DNA of 33,695 nucleotides from a virus. The translations under genes were made by a program, and so were the position numbers. How positions within the stretch are numbered: the first letter of the stretch is position 1; every line of letters begins with the position of its first letter. Below are positions 14,604-26,090 of the stretch, piece after piece. The DNA lies in the IMG/VR virus record IMGVR_UViG_3300039159_000311, positions 1 to 33,695 of that record. One strand, 5' to 3'. The notes below the pieces were generated by a model that saw only the letters and a program-made list of their open reading frames with translations, had not been told where the DNA came from and made no database searches.

Positions 14604-14879
14604 TCATCCAGAAAAAACGTTAGAACTACCCTGGGCAGACACAGACCCACATGATACTGGGTCACCGATCCTAGCCAGGGCCTTCCCGTTCACAAAGACT
14701 GTCGGTGAGCCATGCGCCAGAACGCCTCCATGATCATGCCCAGCCCAGTTATCACCCTCTCGGTGAGCACCAAGACCATTGATAAACACGTTCTCCGAGG
14801 CTTCAATATTCGGTCTTGGAGGATATCTACCATGACCCGTGCATAGGTCACCAAGGCGTGTTACAGCTCTTGATTTCAT
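14604..14879 (-). CDS. 5.4: PAAR-domain tail-tip protein (gp5.4-like)
   Basis: A 91-residue PAAR protein. Such proteins form a small cone that sharpens the tip of the gp5 needle and binds a metal through conserved His/Cys residues. Typical features are AVTRLGDLCTGHGRYPPRP at the N-terminus, NWAGHDHGGVLAHGSPTVFV in the middle, and GKALARIGDPVSCGS near the end. Candidate metal ligands are Cys13, His15 and the later His and Cys residues. The start overlaps the gp5 stop by 4 bp (ATGA), the order seen for gp5-gp5.4 in T4. The assignment is firm. Confidence 0.9.
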   Translation of the reverse strand: MKSRAVTRLGDLCTGHGRYPPRPNIEASENVFINGLGAHREGDNWAGHDHGGVLAHGSPTVFVNGKALARIGDPVSCGSVSAQGSSNVFSG

Positions 14880-17332
14880 ACTAGAATGAACCCGTTAGCC
14901 TTGATTGTCTTATTCCTTGCAGCGTCCATGGTGAAGGCTTGTGTCTTATTGCCACTGCTCTTATAGGAAACGTGAATCCAGGTGGATGAACCTTTGTACT
15001 CCAGGATGAGCTGATTGTACGCAGGGAGCATCTTCTGAATATCCTGAACGATTCTGTAATGATCTTCGCGGGTCATACCATCGAACACAATATCAGCTGC
15101 TTGACCGAATAGGTGATCTGAGGTCTTCGAGCCGCCTGCAGAATCATTGACAGACTGACTACGCCACGCGCTCGTAACCTTCATGTTAGGATAACGCTTG
15201 CGGATAGGGTCTAGAACGTTCTCCGTGAGTTGCTTGAGATTACAGATAATTTCAGGAGCCGTCATTCCATAGTTCACACCTGATGGGATGCCCGAACGAC
15301 CAGATCCTAGTGTATCACCCAATGTAGATATGTCGGTTAGCTTATATGCTCTGGTGAAATTGGTTTCTTTGAATATCAGATCACACCCTGGCTTGATAAC
15401 AGGAGCAGGTTGCTTCTTGACAGCTTCAACTTCTTCTTTAGTCGTTTCAGGTGTTGGCTTTGTAGGCACTGCATCGGCTTCATCGATCTTACCTTCAGCA
15501 ACTTGCTTCTCGATGAAGTCTGTATTCGCACCTTCCTCTGGAGTCTCATAGTTAGAATCTGATTCCGTGTTTCTATTAGGCACCTGGAGTTCCTCAAATT
15601 TCTTTTCCTCTGGGCGTTCTTCTTCGTTATGTTTGATGTAGAATCCGTCGCCGTTGTTGAAGTCGACGCGACCAGACTTAATAGGATTACCAGTGTCAAC
15701 TGAGAATCTAGCCCATTCCGGTTCTTCCATGTACCTATCATTACCGACCAGCACGCGGAACTTCCTACCAACTGCAATCTCAAGATCGCGACCAGCCCTG
15801 ATTTTCATATCCCCGACTGTTTCCACGATGCTATCTCGCTCTACGCGAATCTGAGCATCACCTTCGACTGTGATGTTGCACTTACCTCTAATGACCACAT
15901 TGCCATTGCGCTCGTATATGTCAAACGCATCGCCTACAATCCTACGGACCATGGTCCCGTTCTTATCAACTTCGGTGAATGTGCCGCTCTTGTGATACGT
16001 ATGGATACGTTCGTTTCCTTCAGTATCATCGAACTCCTGCAGGTGACCAGACTCACTGGAATAGACCTGATTGTATGGATACTTGGCGTTGTAAGGTATC
16101 TTAGGCTGATCCCAGGTTTCACCTTCCTTGGCAGTCTTGACCTTCTTCGCTCTGGCTGCTTCCTTCTTGTAAACAACCGTTCCGTCGATTTTATCATGGC
16201 GAGCCAACCGGTTCGTGTCCGGTTCATCCAGGAACTTCGGATACTTCTGAGCTGGGTCTTTGAATCCAACTTCGCCACCCGGTGGAACTTTATTAGGATC
16301 CTTAGATGGGATAATCTGAACAACCGGATTGTCAGACTTATCATCAACAACTGGCGCTTCCTTAGGCAATTCCTTGACGCTTCCATCATCCTGAGGGATC
16401 CCGTCTTTCATGAACAGGGTCTTTTCCTTCACGCGCCTATTGTAAACACCAGGTACAGAGACGAGTGTCAATGGGATGGTGGACGCGGCGACCTCATACT
16501 TGCCAGCGTTCAGGCGAGCGAGGAAATCAGAGTTCTTGAAGTTTGATGCGCCCATATTGTATATCATGGACGTACATGCGTCGAACATACTTTGGGTCAG
16601 TGGAACCTTGACTAGCCTGCGAGTAGACTTCTCGTAATCGTTAGTGACACGTTCTTTCAGGAGAGCATCAGCCTCAGCCTTGGTGAAGCTTGTGTCCGCA
16701 TCAACGCGACTTCCATCAGAGAGGATTGTGTTGCCCCACCCGATAGTCCAGACACCTGTTGAGTCCTGATAGCTGTATATCTTTGTGCTGGAAGGAGTAG
16801 ACTCAGAGCCTCTTTTGTTCTTACCCTTGGTCAGAGAAGATAATGCTTCGCTTTCTCGCAGTTCTTTGTAGCCATTCTCGGACATACTAAGAGCTGAAGG
16901 TTTCTTTGGTTCTGTAGCAGCCGTATCCTGCTTGACAGTAGAATCTTCCGCGTAGCCGGTGGAAATAGGTGAACCGGACGAATCTTTCCAGACCGTCCCA
17001 TCACCCGAGCGTACAACCGCGCCTTCCTTTGCAGGGGATTCTTCTTTTGTCGGTACGCCAGGGAGTGTTCCGATGATGACTGGGAACTGGTTAAATTCAT
17101 CGCGGAACACGATCATAACCCAGGTTCCCTCGACGATACCTGTAGGGGATTGACCGATGCCTGAATTGGCAGCCGAGGTTGTCGGTTGCATCACGATAGC
17201 CCATGGTAGACTATCGGTAGGAAGAAGTTGCTTATCCTCGGTGTGAATGCCAGAAATGCGAACCTTACACCGACCGATTTTCAGCGGGTCAGTTAGGCGG
17301 TCTTCGACGACTCCAAAATGTATTCCGTTCAT
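14876..17332 (-). CDS. 5: Baseplate hub needle gp5: OB fold, lysozyme, beta-helix and M15-type peptidase
   Basis: A T4 gp5 homologue, the membrane-puncturing needle, but 818 residues against about 575 in T4. Residues about 1-95 form the OB-fold hub domain (VVEDRLTDPLKIGRCKVRIS). Residues 152-315 are a GH24 lysozyme with Glu162, Asp190 and Thr196 in the places of the T4 lysozyme catalytic triad (RESEALSS; YQDSTGVWTIGWGN). A Lys/Glu/Pro-rich segment leads to a triple beta-helix (about residues 440-560; YERNGNVVIRGKCNITVEGD). An acidic linker follows (about 565-650). The C-terminus (about 655-818) resembles M15-type D,D-/L,D-peptidases: TSAWRSQSVN, SDHLFGQAADIVF and WIHVSY give His740, Asp747 and His787 as zinc ligands. 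The gene overlaps gp27 and PAAR by 4 bp each. The lysozyme carries a 19-residue insertion between Glu and Asp relative to T4. Confidence 0.92.
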   Translation of the reverse strand: MNGIHFGVVEDRLTDPLKIGRCKVRISGIHTEDKQLLPTDSLPWAIVMQPTTSAANSGIGQSPTGIVEGTWVMIVFRDEFNQFPVIIGTLPGVPTKEESPAKEGAVVRSGDGTVWKDSSGSPISTGYAEDSTVKQDTAATEPKKPSALSMSENGYKELRESEALSSLTKGKNKRGSESTPSSTKIYSYQDSTGVWTIGWGNTILSDGSRVDADTSFTKAEADALLKERVTNDYEKSTRRLVKVPLTQSMFDACTSMIYNMGASNFKNSDFLARLNAGKYEVAASTIPLTLVSVPGVYNRRVKEKTLFMKDGIPQDDGSVKELPKEAPVVDDKSDNPVVQIIPSKDPNKVPPGGEVGFKDPAQKYPKFLDEPDTNRLARHDKIDGTVVYKKEAARAKKVKTAKEGETWDQPKIPYNAKYPYNQVYSSESGHLQEFDDTEGNERIHTYHKSGTFTEVDKNGTMVRRIVGDAFDIYERNGNVVIRGKCNITVEGDAQIRVERDSIVETVGDMKIRAGRDLEIAVGRKFRVLVGNDRYMEEPEWARFSVDTGNPIKSGRVDFNNGDGFYIKHNEEERPEEKKFEELQVPNRNTESDSNYETPEEGANTDFIEKQVAEGKIDEADAVPTKPTPETTKEEVEAVKKQPAPVIKPGCDLIFKETNFTRAYKLTDISTLGDTLGSGRSGIPSGVNYGMTAPEIICNLKQLTENVLDPIRKRYPNMKVTSAWRSQSVNDSAGGSKTSDHLFGQAADIVFDGMTREDHYRIVQDIQKMLPAYNQLILEYKGSSTWIHVSYKSSGNKTQAFTMDAARNKTIKANGFILV

Positions 17333-20089: not shown

Positions 20090-20557
20090 ATGGCATACAA
20101 CTACAGGCAGGGGTTTTGGAAACCGAAGAATCCGGAAAAGTACATAGGCGACGTAAATCAGATTTTCTACAGATCTGGCTGGGAATTGAAGTTTTTGAAT
20201 TTCGCGGATATGAATCCTCAGGTCTTGAAGTATGGTTCGGAAGAGCTGGCGATACCATACTTCAGCGAGGTTGATAAGAAGATGCATCGCTACTTCCCAG
20301 ACTTCCTAATGATTGTTCAGAATAACTCCGGTCAAGTAAAGAAGTACATGGTCGAGATAAAGCCGCACAAAGAGCGATTTATCCCGAAGCGCCCAAGTAA
20401 GATAACGAAACGATATATAACAGAAATGAAAACCTATTCAGTAAATCAATCGAAATGGCGGGCGGCAGAAGCATTTTGTGCGAAGCAAAACATAGAATTT
20501 ATCGTAATGGATGAATATTCATTGGGTATTGCAAGGAAAAAGAAGGTCGCGTCATGA
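20090..20557 (+). CDS. 4: Head completion protein gp4 (TnsA-like nuclease fold)
   Basis: A 155-residue homologue of T4 gp4 (about 150), needed to finish packaged heads before tails join. It begins MAYNYRQGFWKPKNPEKYIG and RSGWELKFLNFAD. It carries the restriction-nuclease-like motif: Asp in YFPDFLM and Glu-x-Lys in KYMVEIKPHKE, which would form a PD-ExK site. The family is related to TnsA-like nucleases. It is the first gene of the rightward late operon, after a short leader with a CTAAATA box and no obvious Shine-Dalgarno. Its stop overlaps the ATG of the next gene by 4 bp. The assignment is firm; nuclease activity is inferred from the motif. Confidence 0.9.
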   Translation: MAYNYRQGFWKPKNPEKYIGDVNQIFYRSGWELKFLNFADMNPQVLKYGSEELAIPYFSEVDKKMHRYFPDFLMIVQNNSGQVKKYMVEIKPHKERFIPKRPSKITKRYITEMKTYSVNQSKWRAAEAFCAKQNIEFIVMDEYSLGIARKKKVAS

Positions 20558-21255
20558 TCTGTAAATTGTGTCAGATCGAACTCCCAACGATCAATGGGAG
20601 CATGCTCAGGCATATTAAAGTTGTACATCAAGTCCAATCTATAAAAGATTATTTCTACGTCGACGGTTGTGACGACAAATGTCCGATTTGTATGTTGAAT
20701 AATGTAAATGTTACAACATGGAATATGACCCGTTCCGAAACTTGCGAATCTTCAAAATGCATAGAGATCAATAGATCAATGAAGATACGGGAAGCTCAAT
20801 TGAAAATGTCTAAAAATGGGAAGAATAATTTCCAAAAACAAACGACTAAAGATGCTTGTAGGTTGAAAAGTAAACAGATACATGAAGCTGGCTTAGCTCA
20901 TTATCAAACAGATGAATTTAAGTTGAACGCTTCTAAGGCAATGACAGAAAGAAATATCAAGAATAATCCAATGAAATGTCCAATCAGTGTTCAGAAGATG
21001 AAGGTATCGTCCACTGGTAAAATACTATCAAAGGTGCACAAACAAGCCATCTCATCTGGGCTATCTAGATTCATACAATCATTATCAGATGAAGATTTTA
21101 AGAAGAGGCTCAGTAATTCGTTTGGAAAATATAGTGAGTTTGAAGAATGGGTATCTTATGACACCTACATATCTTCTATATGCGATGATTGGGATAGTAT
21201 CCGTAAAGAAACAATAGCATTACTCATCATGACAGAAAAACACCTCAAGGTCTAA
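20554..21255 (+). CDS. Zinc-finger protein, possibly homing-endonuclease derived (233 aa)
   Basis: Starts with a C2H2-type finger (Cys3, Cys6, His20, His25: MICKLCQIELP ... LRHIKVVH). A second Cys cluster follows (CDDKCPIC and later CESSKC). Lys- and Ser-rich helices then include KMKVSSTGKILSKVHKQAIS, which resembles NUMOD3-type DNA-binding repeats of phage homing endonucleases. I see no clear HNH or GIY-YIG catalytic core. The gene is visibly more AT-rich than its neighbours and uses more ATA/AAT/TTA codons, which suggests separate acquisition. It overlaps gp4 by 4 bp and ends just before the 193-aa gene. It could be a degenerate homing enzyme, a DNA-binding regulator or an intact nuclease of a divergent type. 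Confidence 0.7.
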   Translation: MICKLCQIELPTINGSMLRHIKVVHQVQSIKDYFYVDGCDDKCPICMLNNVNVTTWNMTRSETCESSKCIEINRSMKIREAQLKMSKNGKNNFQKQTTKDACRLKSKQIHEAGLAHYQTDEFKLNASKAMTERNIKNNPMKCPISVQKMKVSSTGKILSKVHKQAISSGLSRFIQSLSDEDFKKRLSNSFGKYSEFEEWVSYDTYISSICDDWDSIRKETIALLIMTEKHLKV

Positions 21256-21838: not shown

Positions 21839-23173
21839 ATGGCTGAAACAAAACTTCAGGACTTCCTGACTCATGTAAGAACGGTTGGGCTTACAACTAG
21901 CTCACACTTCTACGTAATCATACCGGACGGGTCTGGTGATGCTCGGAGTGTAGGGCTTCTCTGCGATTCCGCTGTCATACCTGGTGTGAATATCATGACA
22001 TCAGAACTAAGGACAATGGGTGAAGTCACTGATATTCCTTACGGTATCACATACCAACCAATCAACCTATCCTTCTATCTGGATAACAAGTTTTCAGCCA
22101 GGACGCTGTTTGAAAACTGGACAGATGCCGTCTACGACCGTATATCGCGCTCTGTCGGCTATTACAAGAACTATGTCAAGGACATTACGATAGTCGTTCT
22201 TGACAGAGCAGATGATAAGGTCTATGAGGTCACCCTCTACGAAGCATATCCTAAGACTATAAGCGATGTCGCCCTTTCTTATAGCAGCCATGATGTACTG
22301 AAACTCGACGTCCAATTGGTATTCAAATATTGGAGATCGAAACTTCTCGGTGCTGAGTCGATCGGTCGCGATGAAGTTATTATGACAGCTAGGAGTGAAA
22401 TTTCCAAGAGAATGGATGCCGCGAAGATGAAGGTTATACTTCCAGAATCTCGCACTGAACAGATCGGCAACAGATTGGGTGGTGGTGCACCTACAGGAGA
22501 CTTCGGGTTTGGTACCGATATCGGCTCTGAACTGGCAACATGGGGTCCTACGATGGGAGTCGATTGCCGTAGAGCAGGTCTTAGTGTTGCATCTCTGACA
22601 AGTGCATCTAATATCACCTCATACTATCCAACAGCTGAAGGTGGTTATACTACGTTCGGTCAGGATTTCGGTGCGAGCAACCAACTTCTGGGTGACCGCA
22701 TGGGGGCGTTCGGTAATAACATCGGAGCATTGGGTAGGTCTCTTTCTAGTTCTGTCGCTGCTCCTGCTAACGCATTGGCTCAAACTACAGGTGCTGTCGC
22801 GGGCAGCGTTGGCTCTATTGGCAATCTACTGAACCGTATGGGAATCAAGAACGGTCTCGGTAAAATCAGCGCGGACCTTGCACAGAATGCAGGTCGCCTG
22901 CAAGTCGTATCCCAACTGAACGGTATTCCGGGTGCACTGGGATCGGTTGGTGCCAACCTAGCAGCTACAGGAGCAGAATTTGCCAGAGCATCGGAGCAAT
23001 TCAATAAGCTAGGAACGCATCCAGGTTCACCGACAGTTCCAGTCAATATGATGCCTGGTACAACCAACGCCATGCGGGGAGCGTTAAGTACTCTAGGGAA
23101 CGTGTTCAACAGACGGGGTAATGAACTATCGTCTGCTTCCAGTTCCGTACAACATATGGTAGGTCCGCAATGA
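21839..23173 (+). CDS. 54: Baseplate tail-tube initiator gp54-like (444 aa)
   Basis: The first 170 residues have the tail-tube fold pattern (SSHFYVIIPDGSGDARSVGL; EVTDIPYGITYQPINLSFYL; TLFENWTDAVYDR; VYEVTLYEAYPKTISDVALS), shared by T4 gp19 (tube) and gp54 (tube initiator). At 444 residues it is far longer than gp19 (about 163) and longer than gp54 (about 320). The additional C-terminus is rich in Gly, Ala and Ser with many short helices (FGASNQLLGDRMGAFGNNIG). That favours gp54, which docks on the gp48 cap and starts tube polymerisation. A gp19 paralogue with an extension is an alternative. The start abuts the preceding stop; the 3' end overlaps the small terminase by 4 bp. Confidence 0.7.
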   Translation: MAETKLQDFLTHVRTVGLTTSSHFYVIIPDGSGDARSVGLLCDSAVIPGVNIMTSELRTMGEVTDIPYGITYQPINLSFYLDNKFSARTLFENWTDAVYDRISRSVGYYKNYVKDITIVVLDRADDKVYEVTLYEAYPKTISDVALSYSSHDVLKLDVQLVFKYWRSKLLGAESIGRDEVIMTARSEISKRMDAAKMKVILPESRTEQIGNRLGGGAPTGDFGFGTDIGSELATWGPTMGVDCRRAGLSVASLTSASNITSYYPTAEGGYTTFGQDFGASNQLLGDRMGAFGNNIGALGRSLSSSVAAPANALAQTTGAVAGSVGSIGNLLNRMGIKNGLGKISADLAQNAGRLQVVSQLNGIPGALGSVGANLAATGAEFARASEQFNKLGTHPGSPTVPVNMMPGTTNAMRGALSTLGNVFNRRGNELSSASSSVQHMVGPQ

Positions 23174-23565
23174 GCAAATCAATTTCAGATATATTCGACA
23201 TAACACCGGTTCCACCGGCTAAACTCCCAGTCATACTTGCCGAACATAAGGATGTGGACAGGGATGCCGATGAAGCTAGAGCTAACCTGAAGTCTTTGAT
23301 TCAGCAAGCCACCAATGTACTGGAGAATGCTATCCACGTTGCTATTGAGTCTGAGTCTCCAAAGTCCTATGAGGTTGTTGCCAACCTTCTTTCGACTGCA
23401 GCTGACCTAAACTCTAAACTCATGGAAACACATAATCAGCAACAGAAAGTCCGGGCTCAAATGAAGCCAGCTGAGGTTAACGCAACGCAGAACAACACAA
23501 CCCATAACAACGTGATGTTCACGGGAACTCCTGATGAGTTATCCAATTTCTTGAAAGGTAAATGA
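23170..23565 (+). CDS. 16: Terminase small subunit (gp16-like)
   Basis: A 131-residue protein with the pattern of the central domain of T4-like small terminases: ANLKSLIQQATNVLENAIHV, then ESESPKSYEVVANLLSTAAD, then NSKLMETHNQQQKVRAQM, a helical hairpin that oligomerises into a ring and stimulates the gp17 packaging ATPase. T4 gp16 is about 164 residues. The C-terminus ends GTPDELSNFLKGK, also usual for the family. The large subunit gp17 does not follow; instead gp26 does, so the gene sits inside a tail-hub operon. Both neighbours overlap it by 4 bp (ATGA). The identification is from motif pattern; position is unusual relative to T4. Confidence 0.8.
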   Translation: MSKSISDIFDITPVPPAKLPVILAEHKDVDRDADEARANLKSLIQQATNVLENAIHVAIESESPKSYEVVANLLSTAADLNSKLMETHNQQQKVRAQMKPAEVNATQNNTTHNNVMFTGTPDELSNFLKGK

Positions 23566-24257
23566 TGAATCTAACAGCACTGAACCCAACTGTAGTCTAT
23601 GAATGTACTCTACCATCCACTGGTAAGAAAATCAAGTTCCGCCCATTCTTTGTCAAGGAAGAACGCGCTCTATTGACAGCCCAGGAATCTGAGGATACAA
23701 CGACTATGCTTCATACGCTGGTCAGTATCATCAAGAACTGTACATTCGATTCGGGTGTTCGATTCACACCATACGACATTGAGCATATGTTCATTCATAT
23801 TCGTGCTAAGTCTGTCGGTGAGGATTCTACATTAGAATTCACATGTAATGAATGTTCTATGCCTTCGGCGATTTCATTTGACATTCGCAAGATTGAAATG
23901 ACAGAGGGTTTGCCTTCGATGATAAAGGTCCATGATAAATTGACTATTCAGATGAAGCACCCGTCTATCGACGACGTATTAGAAATCCTCGATGATAAAG
24001 ACCCAAACATGCTTCGTCAGCGTACCATAGCTGCTTGTATCGACACAATATTCTCAGACGCCGAGGCGCATAGCACCAAGGACGATTCCATAGAAGACAT
24101 CCTAGGATTCCTGAATACCCTGACCAGTAAGCAGTATAAACTCCTGGAAAAGTATATCGAGCAAATTCCAACTATCACCATGATGGTCGGTTGGAAGTGT
24201 AAGCATTGCAAGGCTGATAATGAAACTGAACTCAAGGGTCTATACGATTTTTTTTGA
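23562..24257 (+). CDS. 26: Baseplate hub assembly protein gp26 (T4_baseplate family)
   Basis: A 231-residue homologue of T4 gp26 (208), needed for hub assembly. Features are NPTVVYECTLPSTGKKIKFR at the start, RPFFVKEERALLTAQESED, and YDIEHMFIHIRAKSVGEDS. Two Cys pairs (Cys95/Cys98 and Cys213/Cys216) are expected for the zinc-ribbon-like core. In tail genomics this gene and the short one after it sit just ahead of the tape measure, the place of tail assembly chaperones. The last codons are GAT TTT TTT TGA inside a run of eight T, and the following frame is at -1, so a frameshifted longer product is likely. The start overlaps the small terminase by 4 bp. Confidence 0.85.
   Translation: MMNLTALNPTVVYECTLPSTGKKIKFRPFFVKEERALLTAQESEDTTTMLHTLVSIIKNCTFDSGVRFTPYDIEHMFIHIRAKSVGEDSTLEFTCNECSMPSAISFDIRKIEMTEGLPSMIKVHDKLTIQMKHPSIDDVLEILDDKDPNMLRQRTIAACIDTIFSDAEAHSTKDDSIEDILGFLNTLTSKQYKLLEKYIEQIPTITMMVGWKCKHCKADNETELKGLYDFF
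24248..24255 (+). promoter_or_regulatory. Candidate -1 ribosomal frameshift site (T8 followed by TGA)
   Basis: The sequence GATTTTTTTTGA places two TTT codons of gp26 immediately before its TGA. A slip by one base on T TTT TTT continues in the frame of the 60-codon gp51-like region and would produce a 291-residue fusion. The stop codon directly after the slippery codons would favour slippage. Confidence 0.55.
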
Positions 24258-24436
24258 TTTGTCTGGCACATGATACATTGCAAAATCATTTCCAGACAAA
24301 CTTTTCACTGATGCAACACCACAAATACCAGATGCAAGATCTAGACCATATGCTACCTTATGAGAGAGAAATCTACGTGACATTGCTCCTACAACATCTA
24401 GAAGAAGAACGACAGCGTCTACAGAATAGAGGATAA
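24254..24436 (+). CDS. 51: gp51-like hub assembly factor / frameshift extension of gp26 (60 aa)
   Basis: This frame has no ATG at its beginning; the first possible start is TTG at 24254-24256, inside the T-run, with only a distant AAGGG about 15 bases upstream. The text (DTLQNHFQTNFSLMQHHKYQ, then LDHMLPYEREIYVTLLLQHL) has the pattern of gp51-like hub assembly proteins of T4-like phages and of the C-terminal arms of tail assembly chaperones. It is helical and acidic-basic, with no catalytic motif. Order 26-51-29 agrees with T4, although T4 has gp27 and gp28 in between. It may be translated alone, as a gp26 fusion, or both. It ends one base before the tape-measure start. Confidence 0.7.
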   Translation: MICLAHDTLQNHFQTNFSLMQHHKYQMQDLDHMLPYEREIYVTLLLQHLEEERQRLQNRG

Positions 24437-24437
24437 C

Positions 24438-26090
24438 ATGGTAGCAAAGAAAACAACCGAAACTATTATCGGAGGGGAACTTGGCGAAAAGAGTAAGAAG
24501 CTCTTAGACGTTGAGCACAAGCAAACTGAGGTGTTGATCGACGCTATCAAAAAGCTAGCGGATAGGTTCGACATGACAAAGAACCGTCCTCAGGGAGAAA
24601 CGAAGTCCCCGGGTGGTTTCGGCACCCTCAAAGATATGGTGAAGGGTAAAGTAGATTCTGTAAAGCAAGCCCTCACACCAGAAGGTCTTCTGGATATTTT
24701 GGCAGCTAAGAGTGGCGGCGGAATATTGGGGACAGTCCTAGGTGGTGCGTCTGAATCCATCAAGGAAAAGAAAGCAATTTCTGCAAAGAGGGTTGAATCA
24801 AAAGCAAAGTTCGCCCATGGTCTTTTAGCTGGAACTGAAGGTGGTAGGAATGTTGTAGCCGAGGAAGGTGATGAAGGAGCTATTAAGAAGGCGTCTGACC
24901 TCTACGACAAGAATGAAAAGCTTCAAGCTAAGATAGATATCCTAGAAGCAAAGCAACGTGAACTTAAAGACTCTGGTATAACTGGCGCAGACTTGGACAG
25001 GTACGACGCCAAAGAATTGAGCGACCTGAAGAAAGAAAAGGAAAGTGGTGTTTCTAAATTTGGGATGAAGGAGAAGTCCCCTAAGAAATCCCGCGAAGCT
25101 GACCCAAATCCTAGTGCACCGGCAAAAACATCCCGCGAAGCTGACCCAAATCCTAGTGCACCGGCAAAAACATCCCTCGGTCAGATATTATATGATACAA
25201 CAGTCCCATTGGTTGATGCCCATGGTGATGATATGAAGAACCCCGAATTTGCCCAAGGAGTACGAGACGGCATTGAGGAAGAACTTCTAACCATTAACAA
25301 GGAGCAGCTAGAAGCTCTGAATAAAATCTTCAATGCCACGCAGGTAACTGAAGAAGACAAATTCGAAGCTGATAATAAGGATAAGAAGCAGGATAAGAAG
25401 GTTGAACACAAGGAAAAGATCAAAGAGCAGAAGCCGGAAGGCAACGGAATCATGGATTTGCTCAAGGGTGGCTTGAAGGACAAACTACTCAAGAAGATTC
25501 CTGGTCTCGGTAGACTAGGCGGTCTAGCAGCTGGAATGGGTGGTATGGGTGGTATGGCTATGGGCGCACTTGGTGTTGGCTCAGCAGGTGCAGCTGGTGT
25601 CGGCGCTGGTATGTTGATGAACAAGTTTATCCTGAACCCAGCAGCTGGCGCTATCACTGGCGATAAGACAGACACTGTCGGTACAGCCCTCCATAAAGCA
25701 TTCGGTGGCGATATGGATAAGAAGATGAAGGACGCCGATTCGAAGGCTGAAGTAGAACTAGCCAAGTCAAAGATAGCCAAGGGTGAAATGGTATCTCGCG
25801 CTCTAGCGTCTAAGGTTGCCGGTCAAGGTGTTATCGTACCACCTGAGTTGATCATACAACCGAAATCACAGACCGCACCATACAGTCATGAAATGCGTAA
25901 AGAGCTGAATCGTACGACCACTGAGATTGAAAACTTGAAGTCTGATGTGGCGAAGCCAGCGGATACTAAGGTCATGGCTCCAGCTGTTATTACCAACAAC
26001 AATTCAAGAAACATGACTATTATTCGCCCAGACATCCGTACGCGCGAACCGACTTACAACCGTATCCTAGCAGGAAACGTTTCGTACTAA
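24438..26090 (+). CDS. 29: Tape-measure / hub protein gp29-like (550 aa)
   Basis: Likely counterpart of T4 gp29 (590), which sets tail length and sits in the tube lumen. Residues 1-60 are helical; residues 130-215 are a Lys/Glu/Asp-rich coiled-coil-like region (KNEKLQAKIDILEAKQRELK). A Lys/Glu-rich stretch occupies about residues 310-335. A hydrophobic Gly/Ala/Met segment near residues 353-400 (LGRLGGLAAGMGGMGGMAMG) could be membrane-active on ejection. The C-terminus (NNNSRNMTIIRPDIRTREPT) is conserved-looking. AGAGGA precedes the ATG. A perfect 42-bp duplication adds 14 residues in the middle. It is last in the rightward operon before a terminator. The role is inferred from composition, length and order after gp26/51. 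Confidence 0.8.
   Translation: MVAKKTTETIIGGELGEKSKKLLDVEHKQTEVLIDAIKKLADRFDMTKNRPQGETKSPGGFGTLKDMVKGKVDSVKQALTPEGLLDILAAKSGGGILGTVLGGASESIKEKKAISAKRVESKAKFAHGLLAGTEGGRNVVAEEGDEGAIKKASDLYDKNEKLQAKIDILEAKQRELKDSGITGADLDRYDAKELSDLKKEKESGVSKFGMKEKSPKKSREADPNPSAPAKTSREADPNPSAPAKTSLGQILYDTTVPLVDAHGDDMKNPEFAQGVRDGIEEELLTINKEQLEALNKIFNATQVTEEDKFEADNKDKKQDKKVEHKEKIKEQKPEGNGIMDLLKGGLKDKLLKKIPGLGRLGGLAAGMGGMGGMAMGALGVGSAGAAGVGAGMLMNKFILNPAAGAITGDKTDTVGTALHKAFGGDMDKKMKDADSKAEVELAKSKIAKGEMVSRALASKVAGQGVIVPPELIIQPKSQTAPYSHEMRKELNRTTTEIENLKSDVAKPADTKVMAPAVITNNNSRNMTIIRPDIRTREPTYNRILAGNVSY
25089..25172 (+). repeat. Perfect 42-bp tandem duplication in the tape-measure gene
   Basis: Two identical copies, 25089-25130 and 25131-25172, encode SREADPNPSAPAKT twice in frame. 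No base differs between the copies, so the duplication is recent or homogenised. It lies in a proline-rich linker between coiled-coil parts. Confidence 0.95.

Follow-up and report, generated by a model that had tools for sequence, protein, structure and literature searches.

Predicted −1 ribosomal frameshifting from a gp26-like gene into a gp51-like arm in an uncultivated T4-type phage

In a 33,695-base viral record (IMG/VR IMGVR_UViG_3300039159_000311; hereafter the window, meaning the whole stretch that was analysed), a gp26-like gene stops within a run of T just where a second open frame begins one base back, raising the question of whether the two frames are separate genes or two parts of one protein joined during translation. 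With high confidence, we read the locus as one gene for a tail assembly chaperone whose long form would be made by programmed −1 ribosomal frameshifting. The surrounding genes form a T4-type baseplate and replication set, and no close relative of the window phage was found.

Anatomy of the locus

The features of the locus are as follows.

23562–24257, plus strand: gp26-like gene, putative short chaperone form (TAC-N), 231 aa
24248–24254, plus strand: T_TTT_TTT, a slippery heptamer of the X_XXY_YYZ type read in frame with gp26, within the T8 run at 24248–24255
24255–24257, plus strand: 0-frame stop codon TGA, read in the sequence immediately 3' of the heptamer
24254–24436, plus strand: −1 frame arm, gp51-like (TAC-C), 60 aa, ending in TAA at 24434–24436
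24438–26090, plus strand: following gene, 550 aa, a probable tape measure protein that agrees in location and length with the tape measure genes named in HTVC008M, phiM12 and Cr30

The gp26-like protein matches the Pfam family PF12322 (T4_baseplate) at 5e-49 with 167 bits against a cut-off of 24.5, covering profile positions 4–218 of 219, and the phrog_150 profile at 1.1e-48; it is the only gp26 match in the record. Its AlphaFold2 model has a mean pLDDT of 93, and Foldseek searches of viral models recovered gp26 relatives. In the PDB, the match of highest Foldseek probability was the HK97 tail assembly chaperone 2OB9, a weak and partial hit (probability 0.60, E 0.53) that makes the likeness of the predicted fold to this chaperone suggestive only; a sequence search of the PDB found no relative. 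The open reading frame at 24438–26090 has weak sequence similarity to tape measure genes, which together with synteny makes it a probable tape measure gene.

The gp26-like gene ends TAC GAT TTT TTT TGA, with the last Phe codons and the first base of the stop inside the T8 run, as the initial annotation had read it. This is the only run of at least seven T on either strand of the window. About 1.25 runs of T8 are expected by chance across the whole window, so the run is unremarkable by itself, and we discarded the idea that it is a rare event as such; what is remarkable is its exact placement and phase.

Re-reading one base at the heptamer gives TTG ATT TGT from position 24254, and the frame then stays open to the TAA. 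The 60-codon frame is thus exactly at −1 and begins in the T-run, as had been described, and translation through the shift would yield the anticipated 291-aa fusion (231+60) with a DFFLI junction (...YDFFLICLAHD...). The accompanying claim that the short frame has no ATG at its start holds, since no ATG occurs in this frame before codon 20, but codon 1 is TTG, which could serve as a start codon although its placement is poor. Initiation at codon 20 would cost a third of the conserved arm.

The assignment of the arm as gp51-like was also upheld: it hits the phrog_634 profile, annotated 'baseplate hub assembly catalyst', at 2.8e-24 over positions 58–114 of 121, and in T4 gp51 the arm is carried in frame. 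The arm also matches the C-terminal end of phrog_150 (9e-6), in the region that follows immediately on the one covered by gp26. Homologues of the arm were found by tblastn in 507 phage records at E 0.01, and among the matches listed similarity begins at the second arm residue, adjoining gp26. The arm is predicted to be helical, its structure being read from the model of a natural in-frame fusion (contig L039, described below) rather than from the frameshifted fusion of the window.

Conservation among relatives and alternative readings

A search of IMG/VR with the single gp26 sequence gave no matches, and an alignment of fusions was needed to find loci. The IMG/VR loci came from two scans whose patterns were protein motifs away from the slip site, so the slip site itself was not selected for. 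The non-redundant set comprised 156 loci (the window, 11 named phages and 144 IMG/VR contigs), whose counts are not independent because the loci share phylogeny, so that statistics drawn from them overstate independence.

In all 168 of the loci with two separate frames, the arm lies at −1 and an in-frame T_TTT_TT[C/T/A] stands at the 3' end of gp26; none of them replaces the T-run with an ATG and ribosome binding site for the short frame. The non-redundant loci carry T_TTT_TTC (98), T_TTT_TTT (54) or T_TTT_TTA (4). The codon before the slip-site Phe codons (AGT, GAT, TCT, AAT, GCT or GGT, encoding Ser, Asp, Asn, Ala or Gly) varies, and it ends in T in every case. The middle codon of the site is always TTT, compared to 72% of Phe codons elsewhere in these genes, and in most loci the 0-frame stop follows within two codons. 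The 11 named phages, which infect varied hosts, all have a gp26 3' end with T_TTT_TTC or T_TTT_TTT and a −1 frame continuing into the arm. The same arrangement was seen in four further phages chosen for their distant gp26, two of which have T_TTT_TTG.

The arm evolves as a protein throughout. Among 264 pairs of 78–97% identity, differences at codon positions 1, 2 and 3 numbered 923, 538 and 1775 in arm codons 1–19, and 1080, 354 and 2836 in the codons after 19. Because differences in the first stretch concentrate at third positions, protein-level constraint extends to the part of the arm that precedes the usual first ATG. Slip site and phase are thus kept while third positions in the arm vary, the pattern that the initial annotation had set as its check, and the conserved phase and heptamer support its proposal that a −1 frameshift probably fuses gp26 to the gp51-like arm. 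Anatomy, phase, homology and conservation are here direct observations.

The long form could instead arise through slippage of RNA polymerase, rather than of the ribosome, on T8. Polymerase slippage becomes plausible at run lengths near T8, which is the run length in 41 of the 156 loci, the window included. In 102 of the 156, however, the run is only T6, usually followed by C, and every locus preserves the register of the heptamer relative to the frame of gp26; in addition, the frame-dependent conservation of third bases fits tRNA re-pairing. We consider polymerase slippage very unlikely as the source of the long form.

The arm could also be a separate small gp51 whose translation is coupled to termination of gp26 and begins at the TTG at 24254 or at an ATG further in. 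The TTG at codon 1 of the window arm would permit this, and public records annotate the arm in this way (for example, 30 aa in P-HM2). Yet no ATG, GTG or TTG occurs in the first 12 arm codons of 60 of the 156 loci, no ATG occurs there in 93, and conservation of the arm extends all the way to the slip site; constraint ahead of the first ATG, combined with the 60 loci that lack any of these start codons, argues against a separately initiated gp51. An invariant slippery heptamer and the in-frame fusion of the arm to the gp26-like domain of T4 gp51 argue in the same direction, leaving separate initiation highly improbable.

That the stop is a homopolymer error of sequencing or assembly in what is truly one in-frame gene, as the fused frame of a single IMG/VR contig might suggest, can be dismissed as a general explanation, since phage isolates from a wide range of hosts show the same −1 layout in their complete genomes, and it also occurs at T6C sites, which are not homopolymers.

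Frameshifting at the heptamer thus stands as the preferred reading of the locus. The contig just mentioned (L039:2459–3349; IMGVR_UViG_3300020042_009157) is the sole case in which gp26 and arm form one open frame, through T10 (AAT TTT TTT TTT AGT). It may reflect a miscounted homopolymer, or an inverted arrangement in which slippage would yield the short form.

Candidate stimulatory elements

Upstream of the heptamer, complementarity to the anti-Shine–Dalgarno sequence of 16S rRNA across 154 loci is strongest for 8-mers whose 3' end lies about 7 nt from the site. The mean for this Shine–Dalgarno-like element is −6.1 kcal/mol, compared to −4.8 kcal/mol in synonymous recodings (z about −9.8), with p 1.6e-8 in a paired test using each phage's own codon usage. 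Downstream, the stability of a 69-nt stretch of RNA relative to synonymous recodings has a mean z of −1.5, compared to −0.4 for the body of gp26. One stem forms all of its 10 bp in 16 cyanophage-type loci, starting 5 nt after the heptamer, with one T-A/G-C exchange within the stem; nearly all other loci form 2–6 of these pairs.

Two candidates lie beside the heptamer in the window.

24234–24238, plus strand: AAGGG, a weak Shine–Dalgarno-like stretch 9 nt before the heptamer, −3.8 kcal/mol
24258–24300, plus strand: candidate stimulatory RNA hairpin with a 9-bp stem, TTTGTCTGG (24258–24266) pairing with CCAGACAAA (24292–24300), 3 nt after the heptamer

The hairpin has an energy of about −13.5 kcal/mol, an average value for this genome in absolute terms. 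Compared with synonymous recodings that follow the codon usage of the phage itself, its z is −3.7. The AAGGG stretch was no better than synonymous controls, and we rejected it as a Shine–Dalgarno stimulator in the window. We also rejected a single downstream hairpin common to all relatives: the cyanophage stem fits 16–17 loci, and no locus other than the window fits the window stem.

Relation to T4 and lambda, and a proposed mechanism

T4 encodes gp26 (208 aa) and gp51 (249 aa), which share the gp26-type domain with the window protein, the arm lying at the C-terminus of gp51. A profile HMM built from 12 arms matched the T4 gp51 C-terminus at 5.7e-9, and the gp26 HMM matched T4 gp26 at 1.6e-22. 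The alignment of T4 gp26 reaches the two Phe residues at the shift point, and the protein stops four residues beyond them (GAG TTC TTT GAG). As gp26 aligns to the shift point and gp51 carries the arm, gp26 is the T4 counterpart of the short form and gp51 that of the long form. The earlier statement that T4 makes them as separate proteins is correct: genes 26 and 51 are two divergently transcribed genes. T4 differs in this from the window, which has a single gene and a predicted frameshift, and the slip site is absent from gene 26 of T4, 44RR2.8t, Thanatos-2 and an Acinetobacter phage. Straboviridae hold both states, with the frameshift in AS-yj and QD01 and two genes in T4. The T4 proteins are listed as hub assembly chaperones, and gp51 is required yet absent from the particle (PMC3004832).

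The arrangement in the window, upstream of the probable tape measure gene, resembles that of lambda gpG/gpGT and of −1 frameshifted tail chaperones in long-tailed phages generally, in which a short and a −1 extended form are encoded just before the tape measure gene (Xu et al. 2004; Atkins et al. 2016); the likeness is one of arrangement, and roles carried over to the window are by analogy rather than by sequence similarity. A review describes T4 as the exception to G-T frameshifting in long-tailed phages (Atkins et al. 2016; PMC5009743).

We infer that slippage occurs, how efficient it is, and what the two forms do as chaperones. Translation would mostly terminate at the TGA at 24255–24257, releasing the 231-aa gp26-like short chaperone. 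A minority of ribosomes, probably aided by the hairpin just downstream, would move back by one base on T_TTT_TTT and read 60 more codons to make the 291-aa gp26–gp51 fusion. By analogy with lambda gpG/gpGT (PMC5009743), the short form may coat the tape measure protein and the arm of the long form may recruit tail-tube subunits, with a short-to-long ratio that would be fixed, as in lambda, by slip efficiency.

On this scheme the T4-type 26/51 pair joins the short and long chaperones of lambda-type phages. We lean towards the view that frameshifting is ancestral in the T4 superfamily, tuned by the upstream Shine–Dalgarno-like element and by hairpins that have been repeatedly replaced in separate lineages, and that the T4 branch lost it through duplication into genes 26 and 51. 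The abstract of Vladimirov, Gautam and Davidson reportedly names T4 genes 26 and 51.

That paper (Virology 2022;566:9–15) identified the tail chaperone genes of T4-like phages, and later papers credit it with separate short and fused long genes in some of these phages (PMC10885494) and with poly-T −1 signals in TAC-N genes (PMC12846349). The T4-like TAC-N/TAC-NC arrangement, as given in these later papers, has a gp26-type short form, a 3' poly-T in TAC-N and a downstream arm frame, all as in the window, where the T_TTT_TTT site runs straight into the stop; the window phage is an uncultivated new member of this group. Because the 2022 work already described both the poly-T signal and the use of separate genes, according to the same accounts, the window locus belongs to a known kind. 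What may be new is the breadth of the survey, along with the statistics on stimulators. In the literature examined, which covered the 2022 Virology paper through works citing it, neither the stimulators nor the polarity of frameshift loss were found.

The survey provides candidate stimulators, together with naturally occurring slip sites on which to measure what sets the short-to-long ratio in contractile-tailed phages. In hundreds of public genomes the annotation splits or truncates the long form. The arm is annotated as a truncated gp51 in P-HM2 (the 30-aa product above) and is unannotated in AS-yj, and the long form is missing from both records.

Several neighbouring genes of the window have features of their own. 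The probable tape measure gene contains an exact tandem duplication of 42 bases at 25089–25172 (SREADPNPSAPAKT twice) that looks recent. On the minus strand, 14876–17332 encodes a gp5-like hub lysozyme in which an M15 peptidase domain has been added at the C-terminus to the OB and lysozyme domains. A 444-aa tube-like protein is encoded at 21839–23173, with the gp19-like domain confined to its first 170 residues and a long C-terminal part that has no family match. Finally, 20554–21255 encodes a 233-aa protein with no family match, located at the junction of two oppositely transcribed gene blocks.
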